From positions 1 to 21,663 of the IMG/VR virus record IMGVR_UViG_3300046011_008292: a stretch of DNA of 21,663 bases; one strand, given 5' to 3'. Positions within the stretch are counted from its first letter, which is position 1, and every line of letters starts with the position of its first letter. The translations under genes and the position numbers were made by a program. Source of the stretch: a virus. This document shows positions 1,334-18,954 of this stretch, one piece after another. Below the pieces are notes generated by a model that ran no database searches, was not told where the DNA came from, and saw nothing but the letters and a program-made list of their open reading frames with translations.

Positions 1334-3544
1334 TTATATGATGTGATAACTTGAAGTTACTCTGCCTACTAAGAGATTAGTAGCATCTTGATTATATGCT
1401 GATGCAATTGGTCCTGACTGTGATTGTGTGCTATTATTGACAGTCTGTGAGTTATCAACAAAGGTCGGATTGTTCATGAATTCTTTTGTTATGTCTCTTA
1501 ACATATCAGAATATTTTATCGAACCATCACGTAATTGTCCACCCATCATTCTATCTAAAGCCTCAACTTGATCATACAGCAGTGTAGCAATTGAGTCTGA
1601 CATTGATGAACTCTGTGCCGTTGTACCTGCTGCTGATGCTGCTTTTGTTGGATTGTAAGTTGGTGGTGTTGCCTGATTAGATGCTACTTGATTTTCTGGT
1701 GCTTGTGGTGTTGGAGTTCCTGTGGCGCCAGCAACTTTCATTAATGAACGTTCATAGTTTCCATATGCACCAGATGCCATTTCTGACTGTGAAGGATTTA
1801 CCCATTTTTTAATTGCCATTTGTAAATCCATATTACCATATTTTCTTGACCACAAATCTCTTTGTGCTTCCCAACCGGCTTGCCAATTAGGAAATCTAAC
1901 AAATGTTCTAGTGTTACCTTCATACGTAATGGTTTCACCAGGAACTCCACCAAATTTTGCTTGCTCTGGAAAAACTTCAGTACGACTTTTAGCAATAATA
2001 TTACCAGGATTATTGTGTCTGAAACCAACAGTTCCTTTTTTAGTTGAACCTTCTCTATTGGCTTGTTCGACCATCAATTGGTTTTGCTGTTCTCTGGATA
2101 AACTATTGAATGTTACTTTTTTATCGTAACTAAACGAACTTGCACCACCAACAGGTGTGGGTTGTCCCTGTGCTTGTCTTTCAGCCAATCTTTGTTGAAA
2201 TTCTAAACTAATGTCTGCGGTATTCATACGATTTAATACTGCTTGTGTATTACTTGTTCTTGCTTCTTTTTCCCTGATGAATGCTTCGTTTTCACGTATC
2301 TTATCTTGTATGTTACTTGCTCTTTGTCCTGCGGTTTCATAGCCAGTAACATTTCCCGATGCATCATATGTTGCAACTTGTCTGCCATCCTTCATCGTTT
2401 TTTCTAGTTCACGTTTTAAGCCTTCATTTTCTGAACGAACTTCTTCAACCGATCTTTCACTTGATAATGCACCGTATGCAGCCATTGCCGCTGAAATTGC
2501 GGCCATTACAGCAGCACCTTTTAGTCCACCAACTCCAGCAAATGCGGCTAAAGCACCAATGGTAACCATACCAAGAACTTTACCTTGATTTTCTTTGAAG
2601 ATATTGTATATGAATCCATACATATCTTTTATTACGGCAGTACCCAAGTCTTTAAATAAATTTATTGCGGTTTGCATACCAGCAGCAATTTTATCAACAG
2701 TTTGCTTAAACATTTTTTGAGTGTCGTCGATAAAGGTGCCTAACTTACCACCAGTCATACCATCAAGTTCTTTGTATAGTCCTGATAGTGCTTCTTTGAT
2801 TGAACTGAGTGAATCGCCTATTCCCCCACCAAGTTTAGAAAAATCAAGTGCTTTATATAATGAATAAAGAGCAAAACCCACCACTCCAGCAAGAACTACA
2901 CCCATAAATCCCATATTACCTAATGCGCCACTCAAAACACCAAATATTCCACGAAATGCACCACCCACCAAACTACCAATACCTCCGAATATTGAACCCA
3001 CTATGCTTGCAGCACCGCCAAGTAAACTGCCAGCAACACTTCCGATACCACTTAGCGCACCGCCTAACATACCGAGAATATTAAATCCTCCGCCACCAGC
3101 AGTTTTTCCTAAACCTGGTCCTGCTTTTCTTCCTCCACCAAACTTTGATTCGTATTTCTCTTCTCTTTGTTTCGCACCTTCAAAATATTTTGCCGGTGTG
3201 CCACCCCAAATGCGAACCATCTGTGCCATGTTTTTTGCAATGGATGGTAACATCATAGAGTTTCTTGCACTAATTTTAGAATCACGTGCAATTGAACTGA
3301 GTGCAGATGGAGAACCAGAAATTTCTGGTGTCATCATTGAAGAAGGAGATTTTCCAGATACAGCACTTGCCTGATAACCTTTTAATGAAGGAAATAATGC
3401 AGTCATTAGTCCTTTTTGTGTAAACAAGGCATTTCTTGGATCATATCTTTCTTTGAGTTGTTGATTGTACGCACCACTCAAAGAAGTGACTGCACTTTTA
3501 CCTGATTGTCTTTGGGCACGAACTAAGTCTGTAAAGGATGCCAT
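1334..3544 (-). CDS. Tape-measure-like tail protein with a C-terminal peptidoglycan hydrolase-like domain
   Basis: A 736-residue protein. Residues 1-60 are a conserved N-terminal block (SFTDLVRAQRQSGK, then DPRNALFTQKGLMTALFPSL). Residues 152-232 and 320-362 are very hydrophobic, Gly/Ala-rich helices, typical of tape measure proteins. Residues 363-460 are charged and probably coiled coil. Residues about 495-610 resemble the 'RNNPGNI' phage muramidase or lytic-transglycosylase-like domain: RHNNPGNI (509-516), FPNWQAGWEA (551-560), WVNP (581-584) and YGNYERSLMKVAG (594-606). The tail is Thr/Pro/Ala/Gln-rich. It lies directly after gp26 and the gp51-like frame, where tape measure genes follow their chaperones. 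From this I infer that it sets tail length, is the functional counterpart of T4 gp29, and helps pierce the cell wall. No catalytic residue is assigned. A weak ribosome binding site (AAGAG) precedes the ATG. It could instead be a hub-associated virion hydrolase. Confidence 0.72.
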   Translation of the reverse strand: MASFTDLVRAQRQSGKSAVTSLSGAYNQQLKERYDPRNALFTQKGLMTALFPSLKGYQASAVSGKSPSSMMTPEISGSPSALSSIARDSKISARNSMMLPSIAKNMAQMVRIWGGTPAKYFEGAKQREEKYESKFGGGRKAGPGLGKTAGGGGFNILGMLGGALSGIGSVAGSLLGGAASIVGSIFGGIGSLVGGAFRGIFGVLSGALGNMGFMGVVLAGVVGFALYSLYKALDFSKLGGGIGDSLSSIKEALSGLYKELDGMTGGKLGTFIDDTQKMFKQTVDKIAAGMQTAINLFKDLGTAVIKDMYGFIYNIFKENQGKVLGMVTIGALAAFAGVGGLKGAAVMAAISAAMAAYGALSSERSVEEVRSENEGLKRELEKTMKDGRQVATYDASGNVTGYETAGQRASNIQDKIRENEAFIREKEARTSNTQAVLNRMNTADISLEFQQRLAERQAQGQPTPVGGASSFSYDKKVTFNSLSREQQNQLMVEQANREGSTKKGTVGFRHNNPGNIIAKSRTEVFPEQAKFGGVPGETITYEGNTRTFVRFPNWQAGWEAQRDLWSRKYGNMDLQMAIKKWVNPSQSEMASGAYGNYERSLMKVAGATGTPTPQAPENQVASNQATPPTYNPTKAASAAGTTAQSSSMSDSIATLLYDQVEALDRMMGGQLRDGSIKYSDMLRDITKEFMNNPTFVDNSQTVNNSTQSQSGPIASAYNQDATNLLVGRVTSSYHII

Positions 3545-3546
3545 TT

Positions 3547-3750
3547 TTATCTCTTGCTTCTGTTAGAAATTTTTTCTTGTTGTAACTTCTCGTTTTCTTC
3601 TTTAATAAAGTTGACCAACATGGTTACATAAACACTCTTTTCCCATGGTACCATGTTTTCAATATCACTTAAATTATATTTGTGATGCTGCATTAATGCA
3701 AAATTAGTTTCAAAGTAATTCTTTAAATTATCATAACAAACGGTTATACG
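3547..3750 (-). CDS. 51: gp51-like baseplate hub assembly protein, probably made by -1 frameshift from gp26
   Basis: The frame encodes RITVCYDNLKNYFETNF, then ALMQHHKYNLSDIENMVPW, then EKSVYVTMLVNFIKEENEK, and stops at 3547-3549. I assign it to the small gp51-like/tail-assembly-chaperone type from this helical pattern and its place after gp26; the name is moderately certain. In this frame the first ATG is at 3693, at residue 20 of the open stretch, giving a 48-residue protein if used. No ribosome binding site precedes that ATG (AATTTTGCATTA), and the upstream part already looks like real protein. The frame is -1 relative to gp26 and joins it exactly at a T TTT TTC heptamer. The coordinates given begin at the first codon after the slip, producing 67 residues added to gp26 residues 1-243. 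It ends 2 bases before the tape-measure-like gene. Confidence 0.72.
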   Translation of the reverse strand, partial: RITVCYDNLKNYFETNFALMQHHKYNLSDIENMVPWEKSVYVTMLVNFIKEENEKLQQEKISNRSKR

Positions 3751-4478
3751 AAAAAACTTTGGAGTCCTTCAATTGTAATTGTTTCGTGATAACCACATTT
3801 AGCACAATTAAATTCAACATCTTTTTTAATCTTTGGCATAGTTTCAAAGAACTCTTGTACTTTAGAAAACTGCTCTCTAGTCAGTCCTTCGATGAATTCA
3901 AGAAGTTCTTTTTTCGGTACATCTTTTGAATAGAAAATGTTTTCTTCGGTATAAACGCCATCGATGCAAGCAATCAAAACGTTCATTAGTTTGTCAACTT
4001 CTGAACCCTCTTGCTTCTGTGCTTCTTCTACCATTTTGAAAGATGGGTATTTAATTAGAATGCCCATATCCTTACTTAATTCAATTTTGTCGATTTTCTT
4101 TTCGTGAACTTCTGGTTGAATTTCGAGTAAGTTCATTTCAAGTTTAACGATATTGCCACACTCCTTTTCTTCACCATCTACTTCGATTTTATTGTTGCAG
4201 CGATAAGGTAGTTCAACCACTTCATTAACCGATCTTGCACGTAGATTCAAAAACAAATATTCAATATCAGTAATTGGTAAATCATCTACATCTAAATCAT
4301 CTAAACAGCAATTTGTTAAAATCTGTTTTATGGCTAAAAGAACAGAATCGGCTTCATTTGATTCCATTGCCATTAAAAGAATTTTTTCTTCTCTGACCAA
4401 AAATGGTCTAAAATGAATTAACCTGTTTGTTAATGGTAAAGTCAATTCATAAATGGGTACATCTATTTTAGGTAACAT
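3744..4478 (-). CDS. 26: gp26-like baseplate hub assembly protein / tail assembly chaperone
   Basis: A 244-residue protein of the T4 gp26 (T4_baseplate) family. Family features seen are the N-terminal IDVPIYELTLPLTNR, then FRPFLVREEKILLMAMES (23-40), a block ending in YLFLNLRARSVNEVVEL (74-90), YPSFKMVEE in the middle, and near the C terminus EQFSKVQEFFETMPKIKKD (202-220) followed by CAKCG. Cys94, Cys107, Cys225 and Cys228 could form one zinc site or two half sites. In T4, gp26 is needed for baseplate hub assembly. Its place between a tube-fold gene and a tape-measure-like gene, and the slippery site at codons 241-243, suggest it is the short form of a chaperone pair like lambda gpG/gpGT. GAGG lies 7 bases before the ATG, downstream of the previous stop. 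Confidence 0.85.
   Translation of the reverse strand: MLPKIDVPIYELTLPLTNRLIHFRPFLVREEKILLMAMESNEADSVLLAIKQILTNCCLDDLDVDDLPITDIEYLFLNLRARSVNEVVELPYRCNNKIEVDGEEKECGNIVKLEMNLLEIQPEVHEKKIDKIELSKDMGILIKYPSFKMVEEAQKQEGSEVDKLMNVLIACIDGVYTEENIFYSKDVPKKELLEFIEGLTREQFSKVQEFFETMPKIKKDVEFNCAKCGYHETITIEGLQSFFV
3750..3756 (-). promoter_or_regulatory. Candidate -1 ribosomal frameshift site (T TTT TTC) at the end of gp26
   Basis: Read on the minus strand, the end of gp26 is CAA AGT TTT TTC GTA TAA. The heptamer T TTT TTC fits the X XXY YYZ rule in the gp26 frame, and both tRNAs can re-pair with TTT after a -1 slip. Upstream, GAAGGA (3765-3770) ends 8 bases before the heptamer, similar in placing to the Shine-Dalgarno-like stimulator of E. 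coli dnaX. Downstream, ATAAC (3743-3747) can pair with GTTAT (3733-3737) around a 5-base loop, starting two bases after the heptamer; this hairpin is short and AU-rich, so its effect is doubtful. Confidence 0.65.
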
Positions 4479-5812: not shown

Positions 5813-6247
5813 TTATCTTATACCAAGGTGCTTTTCAGTCAAAATTAGAAATTGCCAACCGTGGTCTTTACAGAACTCTTCGGCCGCAAACCACTTGGCT
5901 TTGTTGATTTCGTAAGTAATTGCTTCTTGTAGAAACGTTTTGGTCTTGCGTTTCTGTGTGGGTGGTTGAGTTTGTTTCTCTGGTTTGACCTCTATGATAT
6001 AAGTCATAACCGTACCGTCTGCTTTACGCATCTTGGCAATGAAGTCTGGAAAGTAACGATGCTTCTTTTTGTCAACCGGACTGTAGTAGGGTATAGGAAG
6101 TTCTTCCGAACCCCACCAAATGACGTTCGGATTATCATCTAAATATCTCATCACCTTTATCTCCCACGTTGACCTGTAGATGATGTTATTTGCATCACCC
6201 TTGTATTTCTGCGGGTTTTTCGGTTTAAACCTTCCTTTGTTTGACAT
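5813..6247 (-). CDS. 4: gp4-like head completion protein (PD-(D/E)XK nuclease)
   Basis: A 144-residue protein close to T4 gp4 (also called gp50), about 150 residues. The signature GRFKPKNPQKYKGD at the N terminus, NPNVIWWGSEELPIPY (39-54) and SPVDKKKHRYFPDF (56-69) are shared with the T4 protein. The nuclease core is complete by eye: Glu29 in TWE, Asp68 in FPDF, and Glu86-x-Lys88 in IIEVKPEKQ. In T4-like phages gp4 is needed for the packaged head to join the tail, and work on a related phage reported nuclease activity. It is the first gene of the minus-strand cluster and diverges from the gp48 gene across 34 bases. No clear ribosome binding site precedes its ATG. Confidence 0.88.
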   Translation of the reverse strand: MSNKGRFKPKNPQKYKGDANNIIYRSTWEIKVMRYLDDNPNVIWWGSEELPIPYYSPVDKKKHRYFPDFIAKMRKADGTVMTYIIEVKPEKQTQPPTQKRKTKTFLQEAITYEINKAKWFAAEEFCKDHGWQFLILTEKHLGIR

Positions 6248-12580: not shown

Positions 12581-14641
12581 ATGGCAGATAGACTAAGAGT
12601 AACAGAACTTGATTTTGATACAATCAAGGAAAATTTAAAAACGTTTTTAAATCAGCAATCAGAGTTCACAGACTACGATTTTGAAGGATCGGGACTATCT
12701 GTTTTACTTGATATCTTGGCTTATAACACGCATTATCAGGCATACTATTTGAATATGGTTGCTAATGAAGCCTTCATGGACACCGCATTACTGCGTGACT
12801 CCGTTGTATCACACGCAAAGGTTTTAGGATATGTTCCATATTCAAGAAAAGCGCCACGTGCCATTATTAATTTTACTGCGAATACAGGTTCAGATATAGA
12901 ATCAACATTGACCATTCCAAAAGGATTTAGATTTTTATCTAACGACATAGATGGAGTAAGTTATCCTTTTGTTACACTTAATGAAACTACCATAACCAAA
13001 TCGAATACATCATTCACGTTTTTAAATCTACCAATATATCAAGGACAGTTGGTATCATATGCGTATAATCATAACGATGCTACTAACCCAAAACAAATTT
13101 TTAGGCTTCCTGATACAGAGATAGACACAACAACCATTTCTGTATCTGTTCAACCATCTACAACAAATACTGAGATTTTTGTTTATAGTTTTGCTGCTGA
13201 TGCCAGTAACACTTCCACACAATCTGAAGTTTTTTATTTACAAGAAGGCAAAAATCAACAGTATGAAATTTATTTTGGTGACGATGTAATTGGTAAGAAA
13301 ATACCTGACGGTTCAATTGTTAGCATTTCTTACCTTATTACTAGTGGAACCGCTGCCAATAAAGCAAACAATTTCGTAGACAATGGACAAATAATAAAAG
13401 ATTCGTTAGACAATCCAATAAGTGACTTTAGTGTTGACCCTGTTAGTGAAGCGTCTGGTGGTTCCGAAAGGGAGTCGGTAGACAATATTAAATTTGCGGC
13501 TCCTTTACAATATACGACACAAAATCGTCTAGTAACTTTTTCAGATTATGAATCATATATTCAGAAGAATTATCCAGCGGTTGAATCTGTATCTGTTTGG
13601 GGTGGAGAAGACGAATCACCTCCAAAATTTGGTATAGTTTATATTTCTTTAAAAACTGAAGAAAACTATTTTATATCTGAAACTGAAAAGCAACGTATTA
13701 TTGATGAAATTATCAAACCAAAAGCAATCGTTGCTATTCAAACTGTCTTCAGAGACCCCGAGTTTCTGTATTTACTTGTTTCATCCAATGTTACTTATAA
13801 CCCAACAAAAACGGTATTAACTGATAGTCAATTAAAAACAGCAATAAAAAATGCTATTTTGAATTATAAAGTAACCAATTTAGATAAGTTTGGTTCACAA
13901 TTTATTTTATCAAAAGTTCAAGATGCTATCGATTCTGTAGACACGAATTCTATTCTAGGTTCAAGTTTATCCATTCGTTTACAGAAAAGATTTATTCCGG
14001 TTTTAAACGCATCAACACCATATACTATCAGTTTTAATGTTCCTTTACGTAGAGGAACAATCGGCAACAAATTGTCATCAACCATTTTTACTGTTGCTGA
14101 TGCAAACGGTATTGACCGTGAAGTACAATTCGATGAAATTCCTCAATCGTTTTCTGGCGTTTCATCAATTCAAGTCACGAATCCTGGTGCAGGATTTATT
14201 TCTCAACCCACAATTACAATTGATGGTGATGGAACGGGAGCAAATGCTTCAGCGGTTATTGTAAATGGTAAAATTCAAAGCATAGAAATGGTAAATCGTG
14301 GTATTGATTATACACGTGCAACCGTTACTATTACTGGTGGTGGAGGATATGGTGCCACTGCTTCAGCGGTGATTGATGGAAGAACTGGTACGATTCGCAC
14401 AGTCTATTATGATTCATTCGCTCAGAGACAGGTTGTCGATGAAAATGCGGGTGAAATTGACTATGACACGGGTGTGATTAAAATTTCAAACATCAATATA
14501 AAAGGAACACAATCTGTTGATGGTGATATTAGAGTATCAATTGAATCGGAAAAAGGCATTATAAGTACCGAAAAAAGTACAATCATTACTATAGACCAAG
14601 ATGATCCAACATCAATTAGTACAACGTTAGAAACTGTATAA
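12581..14641 (+). CDS. 6: gp6-like baseplate wedge protein (baseplate J family)
   Basis: A 686-residue protein (T4 gp6: 660). The N-terminal 100 residues are clearly gp6: DRLRVTELDFDTIKENLKTF, YDFEGSGLSVLLDILAYNTH, NEAFMDTALLRDSVVSHAKV and LGYVPYSRKAPRA. The core at about 285-400 matches baseplate J proteins: SEASGGSERESVDNIKFAAP, then LVTFSDYESYIQKNYPAVES. In T4, gp6 dimers form the inner ring of the baseplate and drive its change of shape. Residues about 528-610 carry two beta modules (VTNPGAGFISQPTITIDGDG and a second unit at VNRGIDYTRATVTITGGGGY), which T4 gp6 lacks in my memory and which recur in the gp7-like and gp8 genes. The stop overlaps the next start (TAATG). Confidence 0.92.
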   Translation: MADRLRVTELDFDTIKENLKTFLNQQSEFTDYDFEGSGLSVLLDILAYNTHYQAYYLNMVANEAFMDTALLRDSVVSHAKVLGYVPYSRKAPRAIINFTANTGSDIESTLTIPKGFRFLSNDIDGVSYPFVTLNETTITKSNTSFTFLNLPIYQGQLVSYAYNHNDATNPKQIFRLPDTEIDTTTISVSVQPSTTNTEIFVYSFAADASNTSTQSEVFYLQEGKNQQYEIYFGDDVIGKKIPDGSIVSISYLITSGTAANKANNFVDNGQIIKDSLDNPISDFSVDPVSEASGGSERESVDNIKFAAPLQYTTQNRLVTFSDYESYIQKNYPAVESVSVWGGEDESPPKFGIVYISLKTEENYFISETEKQRIIDEIIKPKAIVAIQTVFRDPEFLYLLVSSNVTYNPTKTVLTDSQLKTAIKNAILNYKVTNLDKFGSQFILSKVQDAIDSVDTNSILGSSLSIRLQKRFIPVLNASTPYTISFNVPLRRGTIGNKLSSTIFTVADANGIDREVQFDEIPQSFSGVSSIQVTNPGAGFISQPTITIDGDGTGANASAVIVNGKIQSIEMVNRGIDYTRATVTITGGGGYGATASAVIDGRTGTIRTVYYDSFAQRQVVDENAGEIDYDTGVIKISNINIKGTQSVDGDIRVSIESEKGIISTEKSTIITIDQDDPTSISTTLETV

Positions 14642-17600
14642 TGTCAGTAGAATTAAAAACATCAATACTTGTTAATCAGCAAGTACCCGAGTTTATTCGT
14701 AATGAATATCCTAAATTCATTACGTTTTTGGAGGCGTATTATGAGTTTCTTGAAACTCAGTCTAATACTGCCCTCACCTCAAATAATCTAGTCACAACTG
14801 CAAAGACTTTAAGAAACATTAGTGATATTGATGATTCTTTGGAAAGATTTGAGAGGAATTTTTATAACACTTATGCTTCATTGGTTCCTCTTGACGTACA
14901 AGCAAATAAGGCGCTTTTATTTAAACATCTTTTACCTCTTTATCGCTCAAAGGGTTCAGAAGTTTCATTTAAACTTTTGTTTCAACTTGTTTTTGGTGAA
15001 GATATTGATGTTATTTTACCAAAAAACAACGTTCTTCGTGCATCGGCCAGTAATTGGCAAATAGACAATAAACTTAGAATTAATCCCGATATTTCAAGTC
15101 GTTATACTGGTAATGGAACAAACAAAACTTTTTATTTGGCACAAAAATCGGGATTAGGTGATGTTGACGTTTACATCAATAATGTTTTAAAAACTCCAAA
15201 AGTTGACTACTTTATCAATAAAGAATATCGTCAACTAAATTTCATTACTGCTCCGGCCAATAATGCCGAAATAACAGTCGCATATGATAATTTCGACATA
15301 AATTTATTAAATAATCGAAAAGTTACAGGCATTACTTCACGTGCTTCGGCTATTATTGAAACCGCAAGTAGAAGAATTATTTCTGATACTTTAAATCTTG
15401 GTTTACCTATTGAACTTTTAGTTAATGTAAAGTCGCTTAGAGGTAGTTTTTTAAATGGTGAAATAGTTACGATACCAATCAATGATGAAACAAATAACAT
15501 TTCGATTGATATTCGTGCTTCAACATTTTCAATCGTTAGACAGTTCAATCTAATTAATGCTGGAAATAACTATAGTGTTGGCGATTCAGTTTTTGTATTT
15601 GGTGGCAATGCATCAGTTAATGCCTTTGGTACAGTTGAAAGAGTCATTACTGGAGAAATTGATACCATAAGTGTCGTTCACGGCGGCGCTGTATTTACAA
15701 ATGCATCGCCTATTTCTGTATATGGTAACAGTTCTTTCACAACAATGACCGTTGTTGTTGATAACATCGACACATCTGGCTCTAATGCAGCCAATTCATT
15801 TAAGGTGTCTCCAGACGTAATATCAAATTTAAGTTTAAACGTCGGTGGTACCGTTTACGTAAACAGTTCGAATTTTGGTGCAGTGTTTGCAAAATCAAAC
15901 ATAAGTGCCGCTAATTCAATTGCTAACGCTTTTAACTATGTTACACTCACTGTAGGTCCGATAAGTAACGTTAAAATTCTTTCTTCTACTGTACCACTTA
16001 CAGAAAAAAATTCAACGTTTTTAGATGCTGCTGGCGCACAGTATGCAGCAAATGCTCCGTTTCGTTATTCAAAAAGTCTGAAGTCAATTGGTCGTTACAA
16101 AATTAACGATGGTGGATTGAATTATCAAATTGGAGATGAAGTTATTTTTAATGCCAATCCACCAGGCACATATGGTCAAATGGCGGCGGCTGTTGTTGGT
16201 AAAATTTCAGTGGGTGGAGCAATTCAGAGAATTGATTCTGCTAATAGTAGAATTCGTGGTGTGGGTGCAGTTACGGCAGCATGTAATGAAATTACCGGCA
16301 CAGGAACTTTCTTTACACAAGATTTAAAAGGTGGCGATCTTGTAGATATTAACAATGAGTCTAGAATTGTTTCTTCTATCACAAGCGACACTATTGCTAC
16401 AGTTTCATCAGTATTTACGTACTCAGCATCAAACAAAAAAATTGGTGTGTATGATCGTTGGCCACTTGGTGGTTATGGTTACACACAAGGTAAGTTTCCT
16501 ACGATTTCAGTTAGTTCTAATACAGGTTCGGGTGCGAATATTCAAATTGATTCGCTAATAGGTGATGGTGAAACATTAACACCAACAGGATTTACTGCCA
16601 ATGGACAAATTATTTCAATTAAAGTTATTAATCCTGGTTCTGGTTATGAATATAACCCGACCGTAAGTATTGTAGGTGGAGATGGTTCAGCAACAGCAAC
16701 AGCAGAAATTGAACGCTCGTATTCTTCTGCGCCCGGTCGTTGGACAACATCCGATTCTATATTGTCTTCTTTCGAAAGAAAACTTCAGGGGCAAGATTAC
16801 TATGTTGATTACTCATATGTAATTTCTTCGAAAACAGAATTCAGCAAGTATAAAACAATGCTGAAACAACTGTTACACCCCGTTGGTATGGTCAACTACG
16901 CTTTATATAATAAAGAAAATCTTGTTGAACTTACTGACGTTGCGGTTCAGAGTTTTACAGCAAACACAATTTCTGGCACAGTCAATGTTGGAAATGGTAG
17001 AGTTGTTGTTACAGGAAATAGCACAAAATATAACGTTGCTAACACAAGAGGTATTTTGTCATTAGGTTCATTGATTGCAGTAAATGGTGAAATTAGAAAA
17101 ATTAACACGATTGTCAGCAACACATCTTTAATTACGACATCAAACATTTCTAATTTAAGAATTGCAAATGCTGGTTCCGGATACTCAAATGGTTATCTAG
17201 TATTTTCAAATGGTGGCGGCCAAATTACAAGTCTCACAATCACTGCTGGTGGTTCTGGATATGAAAATGGTGTAATGACATTCTCTGGTACAGATGAAGC
17301 AATACCAGCAATCGCAAACGTAGAAGTATTTAATTCAAATGGTACAATTCGAACATTAACATTTGTATCTGGTGGTTTGTATGCTAATAAACCAATCGCT
17401 ATACCAGATAGTAATCCACATCGTGTTGTATATGCAAATGGTATTAGTATACCAATTCGTGGTCAAGGTTATGCAAATGGTTGGCTGGTATTCTCAGGCG
17501 GTTCGCCATTGAGAGATGCAAACGTAAGATTAATTGTACACCCAAATACCGTAGTAAATACTGTTGAAGTAATTGATTCTGGACTGTATCAATCTACACC

Positions 17601-18954
17601 AACTGCCAGACCAAATACAAACGCAAATGCTGTAATTTCTTCGGTTACTGTAAACAGTACAGGTAACGGACATTCAAATGGTGTTCTTGTAATTTCTGGA
17701 GGCGATCCAAGTCGTCAAGCACTAATTCGTGTTGAAACATTCCCACCATTATCTGCACAAGTAAACTCAATTTCTGTAAACGCCTTTGCATATGGTGTAA
17801 ATGGATACGTTCAATTTAGTGGAGCAGGAAGTGACAACGTTGGTGCAAATGCTATAATTGTTGTTAATTCCCAAGGCCTTGTATACAACGTGCATTTGGT
17901 AAGTGGTGGTTTATACAAAGGTACACCATTAGCAACAGCAAATGTTGGTAATGCTTCGTTCACATTAGAAATGAAACCTTTGGATGGACAAATTCGTAAG
18001 ATTACGATTGTTGATCCTGGTTTGTATGCTAATGGTTCTACACCCACTGCTATTTTAAATACAGCACCAAACTCTGTAATATCGGTTGTATCAAACACTG
18101 CTGGAAATCTTTTCACAGGAAATAGTCTTGCGAATGGATATCTGGTGTTTAGCGGCGGTCTTCCTGTTAGAGATGCGAATGCAACTTATACTGTTCATTC
18201 AAACGGTGCGATTAATATGGAATCAATAGTAGTTACTGATGCTGGTTTATACCGAATTCCACCAACAACCGTGACACCAAATGTGACAACCGTTTCGGTG
18301 ACAGAAGTTCGCCCAATTGTTGGTGGTTCGGGATACGTAAATGGTAACGTGGTGTTTTCGACAACACAAGCAACTGCAAACATTCGTGCAAACTGTACGG
18401 TTGAGGTTAACGGTGCTTTTGGTGCGATTGTAAGAACCACTGTGAATCATGTTGGCTTATATGCAAATGGTGCAGATATTATTGTTGTGGGAATTCTTGA
18501 CCCGGCCACTGATACATTGCAGTCACCATCAACTGTAGCATCTTTTATCATAGGATATAGTGCTAATGCAAAAGCAGCAGCAAACTTAGTAGTTAATACT
18601 TCGGCAAACGTTGGTCAGACTGCTTCTGTGACACTTACAGCAAACAGTAACTCGTATACAAACGCCGTATTTACAATTACGCCCGTTGCGAACGATCAAA
18701 CAAATGCTGTAATTACAGTTGGATTTACTGGCAGAAACACAGCAGCAAATGCCGCTATTGAAGTTTATCCGAGCAATGGTGCCATCCGTAAAGTTACACT
18801 AAATAGTAATAGTGTGCTTCAAGGAGTTGGAGAGTATTACTATACACCGGATGTGACTCCAAATAGTGCTGGTTCGGGTGCTAAAATTACCTTTAATCCA
18901 GTGTCGTGGTATCAGACATCAAATGCACAGACAGCAATCATATTTAAGCAATAA
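14641..18954 (+). CDS. 7: gp7-like baseplate wedge protein with long C-terminal repeat region
   Basis: A very large protein of 1437 residues (T4 gp7: 1032). The N-terminal 130 residues are helical and conserved in T4-like phages: VPEFIRNEYPKFITFLEAYY, then DIDDSLERFERNFYNTYASL and LPLYRSKGSEVSFKLLFQLV. This resembles the region of tail proteins of the P2 gpI/gp7 type that pack on gp6 and gp25. Residues about 155-218 hold a beta module (YTGNGTNKTFYL, LNFITAPANNAEITVAY). A conserved block near 715-750 (QGQDYYVDYSYVISS, LLHPVGMVNY) normally ends such proteins. Here about 670 more residues follow, made largely of the repeat listed separately. The gp7 name rests on its position between 6 and 8 and on the N-terminal pattern; sequence similarity to T4 gp7 is not evident. 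The repeats may lie on the outer edge of the baseplate and act in glycan or surface contact. Confidence 0.7.
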   Translation: MSVELKTSILVNQQVPEFIRNEYPKFITFLEAYYEFLETQSNTALTSNNLVTTAKTLRNISDIDDSLERFERNFYNTYASLVPLDVQANKALLFKHLLPLYRSKGSEVSFKLLFQLVFGEDIDVILPKNNVLRASASNWQIDNKLRINPDISSRYTGNGTNKTFYLAQKSGLGDVDVYINNVLKTPKVDYFINKEYRQLNFITAPANNAEITVAYDNFDINLLNNRKVTGITSRASAIIETASRRIISDTLNLGLPIELLVNVKSLRGSFLNGEIVTIPINDETNNISIDIRASTFSIVRQFNLINAGNNYSVGDSVFVFGGNASVNAFGTVERVITGEIDTISVVHGGAVFTNASPISVYGNSSFTTMTVVVDNIDTSGSNAANSFKVSPDVISNLSLNVGGTVYVNSSNFGAVFAKSNISAANSIANAFNYVTLTVGPISNVKILSSTVPLTEKNSTFLDAAGAQYAANAPFRYSKSLKSIGRYKINDGGLNYQIGDEVIFNANPPGTYGQMAAAVVGKISVGGAIQRIDSANSRIRGVGAVTAACNEITGTGTFFTQDLKGGDLVDINNESRIVSSITSDTIATVSSVFTYSASNKKIGVYDRWPLGGYGYTQGKFPTISVSSNTGSGANIQIDSLIGDGETLTPTGFTANGQIISIKVINPGSGYEYNPTVSIVGGDGSATATAEIERSYSSAPGRWTTSDSILSSFERKLQGQDYYVDYSYVISSKTEFSKYKTMLKQLLHPVGMVNYALYNKENLVELTDVAVQSFTANTISGTVNVGNGRVVVTGNSTKYNVANTRGILSLGSLIAVNGEIRKINTIVSNTSLITTSNISNLRIANAGSGYSNGYLVFSNGGGQITSLTITAGGSGYENGVMTFSGTDEAIPAIANVEVFNSNGTIRTLTFVSGGLYANKPIAIPDSNPHRVVYANGISIPIRGQGYANGWLVFSGGSPLRDANVRLIVHPNTVVNTVEVIDSGLYQSTPTARPNTNANAVISSVTVNSTGNGHSNGVLVISGGDPSRQALIRVETFPPLSAQVNSISVNAFAYGVNGYVQFSGAGSDNVGANAIIVVNSQGLVYNVHLVSGGLYKGTPLATANVGNASFTLEMKPLDGQIRKITIVDPGLYANGSTPTAILNTAPNSVISVVSNTAGNLFTGNSLANGYLVFSGGLPVRDANATYTVHSNGAINMESIVVTDAGLYRIPPTTVTPNVTTVSVTEVRPIVGGSGYVNGNVVFSTTQATANIRANCTVEVNGAFGAIVRTTVNHVGLYANGADIIVVGILDPATDTLQSPSTVASFIIGYSANAKAAANLVVNTSANVGQTASVTLTANSNSYTNAVFTITPVANDQTNAVITVGFTGRNTAANAAIEVYPSNGAIRKVTLNSNSVLQGVGEYYYTPDVTPNSAGSGAKITFNPVSWYQTSNAQTAIIFKQ
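17158..18480 (+). repeat. Protein-coding repeats of two alternating beta motifs in the gp7-like gene
   Basis: Two motifs alternate. Motif A, consensus GxGYxNGxLxFSGG, occurs seven times; clear copies start near 17173, 17251, 17461, 17662, 18118 and 18322, with a looser one near 17788 (YGVNGYVQFSG). Motif B, consensus xxGLYxxxP, occurs six times (for example SGGLYANKP, DSGLYQSTP, SGGLYKGTP, DPGLYANGS, DAGLYRIPP, HVGLYANGA). Most A copies are about 200-210 bases apart, so a full unit is near 68 residues. After the fourth A copy a B motif is missing, and before the sixth A copy there is an extra one, pointing to past unequal recombination. Copies are divergent in DNA, so the repeat is old. Confidence 0.8.

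Follow-up and report, generated by a model that had tools for sequence, protein, structure and literature searches.

A predicted −1 frameshift joins gp26- and gp51-like reading frames in an uncultured T4-like phage and its relatives

The gp26-like gene of an uncultured virus (IMG/VR record IMGVR_UViG_3300046011_008292) ends in a conserved heptamer, T_TTT_TTC, from which the −1 frame continues into a gp51-like domain. We consider it very probable, from the sequence evidence, that this locus encodes a frameshifted short/long pair of tail assembly chaperones. The slip site, the two registers, their conservation and the homology of the fused reading to T4 gp51 are all directly observed. Hereafter, the window denotes the whole stretch of DNA analyzed, 21,663 nucleotides long; the features discussed are collected in the table.

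Features of the chaperone locus and its neighbor in the window
Feature	Position	Strand	Basis
gp26-like ORF, 244 aa, short chaperone form (TAC-N)	3744..4478	minus	PF12322, phrog_150, AlphaFold
SD-like GAAGGA, possible stimulator (weak support)	3765..3770	minus	8 nt 5′ of heptamer
Slip site T_TTT_TTC	3750..3756	minus	in-phase T6 heptamer in 252/252 tandem loci; synonymous constraint
Zero-frame TAA, end of short form	3744..3746	minus	sequence
−1 frame after slip, gp51-like C-terminal domain, stop included	3547..3756	minus	phrog_634; third-position substitutions
Predicted frameshift product, 310 aa, long form (TAC-NC)	3547..4478	minus	hhalign vs T4 gp51
736-aa ORF, tape measure candidate	1334..3544	minus	position and hydrophobic core

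Reading frames at the gp26/gp51 junction

The gp26-like ORF, encoded on the minus strand, ends with GGA CTC CAA AGT TTT TTC GTA TAA. The initial annotation had recognized a canonical X XXY YYZ slip site here and proposed a programmed −1 frameshift fusing gp26 to a gp51-like domain. The heptamer is indeed in phase with the gp26 frame, and the −1 frame that follows reads FF-RITVCYDNLKNYFETNFALMQHHKYNLSDIENMVPWEKSVYVTMLVNFIKEENEKLQQEKISNRSKR up to a TAA at 3549–3547, the next ATG (3544) being the start of the 736-aa ORF. In the upstream direction, this frame extends to 22 nt 5′ of the gp26 stop and is closed by a stop just before position −22. Both readings belong to known families. The zero frame matches PF12322 (E=7e-59) and phrog_150 (E=3e-64), while the −1 frame, which had been described as protein-like from its first residues, matches phrog_634 (the gp51 family) from the very first one (E=1e-26). 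Moreover, the −1 frame also matches positions 232–276 of phrog_150, immediately beyond the stretch that the zero frame covers. The ATG at 3693 proved to be the only early one in this frame, as initially noted, and no start codon was found before it in the −1 frame of the window. The proposed product sizes of 244 and 310 residues were likewise right. Rfam and tRNA scans of the window returned no matches.

These features suggest that one tail assembly chaperone gene is read in two ways. The majority of ribosomes would end at the gp26 stop, yielding the short form. A minority would slip back by one base on T_TTT_TTC, with both tRNAs re-pairing on TTT TTT, and would go on in the −1 frame to yield the long form with its C-terminal gp51-like domain. 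If lambda gpG/gpGT serve as a guide, the short form would coat the tape measure protein, and the extension at the C-terminus of the long form would recruit tail tube subunits. The slippage, its rate and the chaperone function are predictions made from sequence.

Conservation of the slip site and alternative explanations

To assess conservation, we compiled 268 sequences, including the window, from IMG/VR scans with five queries and from named phage records. In 252 of these, gp51 lies in tandem with a complete gp26. Since this number includes the window itself and a few near-identical copies, the numbers to be used are those obtained by clustering the tandem loci by gp26 amino acid identity: 130 clusters at 90% and 64 at 70%. 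An in-phase T_TTT_TT(C/T/G) is present in all 252 tandem loci, a set defined by the T6 run, and lies 7, 10 or 31 nt 5′ of the gp26 stop, with the gp51 frame always at −1. We found no tandem locus lacking the T6 heptamer; the exceptions are 12 T4-type loci and three loci cut by a contig end. The comparison of the junction across T4-like relatives, suggested by the initial annotation, therefore revealed a universal heptamer among tandem loci and a retained −1 register. The tandem loci span cyano-, pelagi-, methylo-, vibrio-, rhizobial and other T4-like phages. Named carriers include Prochlorococcus phage P-SSM2, Pelagibacter phage Mosig, Methylophilales phage Melnitz, Vibrio phage XZ1, Sinorhizobium phage phiM9 (TTTTTTG), Desulfovibrio phage 7757, Aeromonas phage G2 and Pseudomonas phage Milchi. 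In addition, several loci (L004, L013, L016, L019, L022 and others) show another in-phase heptamer, AAATTTT, located 3 nt 5′ of the slip site and overlapping it (CAAAATTTTTTC).

The conservation is also evident at synonymous positions. At the slip site, every cluster at 70% identity (64/64) uses TTT for the first Phe, and none the synonymous TTC. As a control, we used the Phe-Phe pair of the conserved FFxTMP motif in the same proteins, where the first codon is TTT in 22/46 and TTC in 24/46 cases; the difference from the slip site (Fisher p=7e-12) is indicative only, because clusters share descent and loci were chosen by the T6 run. The codon before the slip site always ends in T, whatever the residue (AGT, GAT, AAT, TCT, GCT), although C-ending codons make up 26% of AGY, GAY and AAY elsewhere. 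Substitutions between relatives are distributed over codon positions 1/2/3 as 30/15/55% in the zero frame before the slip, and as 28/12/61% in the −1 frame after it. Conservation of the slip site is thus far beyond chance, and the predicted frameshift finds support in the heptamer, in the Phe codon constraint and in the coding constraint on the −1 frame alike.

Could gp51 instead be made separately from an internal start, by reinitiation or coupling after gp26 termination? In about a third of representatives an ATG or GTG does lie no more than 18 nt from the slip, in some cases overlapping the gp26 stop (TAATG, ATGA), and databases contain short gp51 genes annotated from internal starts. However, in 80 of the 130 representatives, including the window, the stretch of the −1 frame between 60 nt before and 18 nt after the slip contains neither ATG nor GTG. 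Where internal starts exist, they lack SD pairing (median −0.4 kcal/mol compared to −6.4 kcal/mol for gp26), and no independent gp51 start preceded by a good ribosome binding site was found among homologs. Such a start was rejected because most loci have start-free junctions and internal starts lack SD pairing. Moreover, conserved coding begins at the slip itself, 5′ of the annotated gp51 starts, and reinitiation leaves the invariant heptamer with its synonymous constraint unexplained. We therefore regard this route as very improbable, though reinitiation may add some product at loci where the ATG overlaps the stop.

The nature of the signal, a T run, also brings to mind RNA polymerase slippage, which would generate mRNAs with an extra base, and some relatives (the Melnitz group) do have eight T's (TTTTTTTT). 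Yet only six T's are kept in most lineages, a run that is shorter than usual for transcriptional slippage and thus an unlikely substrate. The run is mostly not extended either, even though the second Phe codon could equally be TTT. Transcriptional slippage appears to us very improbable as well. The notion that gp26 and gp51 are truly one ORF, split by a sequencing error or gene decay, might draw on the colinearity of the fusion with single-ORF T4 gp51. It is nonetheless excluded for practical purposes because the junction is conserved: the same −1 register recurs in 252 loci, which come from numerous assemblies and isolates independent of one another, and there is coding constraint on both frames, before and after the slip. 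The +1 frame was discarded as well, as it closes 10–34 nt past the gp26 stop in most named loci. Ribosomal −1 frameshifting at T_TTT_TTC remains our preferred reading.

We also considered elements that might stimulate this predicted frameshift. The initial annotation pointed to GAAGGA 8 bases before the heptamer, as well as to a weak hairpin after it. The position of GAAGGA (3770–3765) is correct, with the 8-nt spacer CTCCAAAG separating it from the heptamer (3756–3750). Its duplex energy in the window is barely better than that of synonymous shuffles (z=−0.6), and across the 64 representatives upstream SD-like pairing is slightly stronger than in shuffles (mean z=−1.1), which hints at stimulation rather weakly. 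The hairpin did not hold up, as folding 3′ of the slip in the window is no better than that of shuffled sequence (z=+0.1). Downstream folding varies among relatives (mean z=−1.2), and the stimulator may differ between lineages. A downstream hairpin finds no support as a general stimulator, the window being at chance level, though folding is strong in some relatives such as P-SSM2. In that phage, a strong hairpin without a counterpart in the window is predicted 3′ of the slip (−18.8 kcal/mol, z=−3.9).

Relationship to T4 gp26 and gp51

We next compared the locus with its T4 counterparts. The virtual 310-aa fusion aligns with T4 gp51 (hhalign, columns 11–289 vs 6–245, 236 columns aligned, probability 99.2, E=1.2e-19), and the alignment is colinear across the slip point. 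In T4, genes 26 (208 aa) and 51 (249 aa) are separate and divergently transcribed. Both proteins match PF12322 over its full length, and of the two only gp51 matches phrog_634, in its C-terminal part. Thus, T4 gp26 corresponds to the short form and gp51 is a homolog of the complete predicted frameshift product, but T4 uses two separate genes without a slip site where the window has one gene and a −1 frame. The T4-type loci follow this pattern throughout: none of the 12 has the slip site, and in all of them gp51 stands apart as a full-length paralog of gp26 that carries the same C-terminal domain. The 3′ end of T4 gp26, GAG TTC TTT GAG, retains Phe-Phe without the heptamer. It has been reported that T4 gp51 is needed for assembly but is absent from the particle (PMC3004832).

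The T4 genes are, we infer, most simply explained by a duplication after which the slip site was lost. One copy would have kept the fused reading as a single ORF; the other would have lost the slip site, in T4 by a synonymous change (TTC TTT). On balance, we lean toward the T6 slip site being the ancestral and near-universal route to the long chaperone, with T4 genes 26 and 51 having arisen by duplication in one Straboviridae branch.

Structure prediction was performed for gp26 of the window and for a natural full-length T4-type gp51. The AlphaFold model of gp26 is confident (pLDDT 92). It has no significant fold match in PDB, the HK97 chaperone 2ob9 being detected only with E=6 and probability 0.14–0.18, and no sequence relatives were found in PDB either. 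Among predicted viral structures, the model was linked to gp26 proteins of many myoviruses. The proposed chaperone function thus rests on homology to T4 gp26/gp51, on gene position and on the published argument rather than on the fold. Taken together with the colinearity of the fusion and full-length T4 gp51, these considerations favor the chaperone pair interpretation put forward initially.

As for gene position, the 736-aa ORF directly downstream is a putative tape measure protein, judging from its location and hydrophobic core. The core is Gly/Ala-rich, with segments within residues 173–224, and the protein also has a region with RHNNPGN. Among tape measure families, only phrog_4200 was matched, weakly (E=0.013); there was no Pfam match, and tblastn against 50,697 phage records gave no match. 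The counterpart in Melnitz matches the tape measure family phrog_1535 (E=4e-8).

Two other genes of the window deserve mention. A gp4-like head closure protein (5816–6247, minus strand) matches phrog_218 (head closure) and also the TnsA-like endonuclease N-terminal domain (PF08722, E=3e-23). A 1437-aa ORF (14641–18954, plus strand) has many repeated Gly/Asn-rich modules (GSGYxNGxLVFSGG-like) and is possibly a baseplate or fiber protein.

Known frameshifted chaperones and the short gp51 genes

Vladimirov, Gautam and Davidson, writing in Virology in 2022, reportedly described frameshifting as conserved in several T4-like groups and assigned the two chaperone roles in T4 to genes 26 and 51. Frameshifting in T4-like chaperone genes having already been proposed, our finding is a correct re-discovery; the phenomenon itself is not new, and the window is a well-supported new uncultured example of it. 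The phages of that study carry a gene pair of this kind, encoding a short and a long form, whereas the window represents a new uncultured lineage. Lambda gpG/gpGT likewise come in short and long forms. Their slip sequence differs from T_TTT_TTC, and the second reading in the window, unlike that of lambda gpGT, carries a gp51-family domain.

Two further papers cite the 2022 study, one for the poly-T −1 signals in T4-like TAC-N genes (PMC12846349) and the other, the PRFect paper, for the finding that the short and the long form are encoded separately in some T4-like phages (PMC10885494). The former, on Adele, also describes chaperone loci of Vandenendeviridae and Andersonviridae with a conserved poly-T −1 signal at the TAC-N end. 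These loci resemble the window in having this signal followed by an open −1 frame, but belong to other phage families and use the motif GTTTTT. Earlier, Atkins 2016 (PMC5009743) described G-T frameshifting as widely conserved, with T4 as an exception.

With many more genomes, the lambda-type chaperone scheme is confirmed to hold for T4-like phages. Internal gp51 starts are found in public records at 2513 in P-SSM2 (L084), 2561 in L085, 2540 in L262, 2561 in L263 and 2522 in L265. As the record starts fall after the beginning of conserved −1 coding, many annotated short gp51 genes are mis-started, truncated pieces of the predicted fusion, and the predicted frameshift explains the odd "short gp51" of cyanophages. 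Sullivan 2010 (PMC3037559) describes cyanophage and vibriophage gp51 as being without the first ~200 residues. If the T6 slip site is indeed ancestral and T4 genes 26 and 51 arose by duplication, that would account for this apparent absence.
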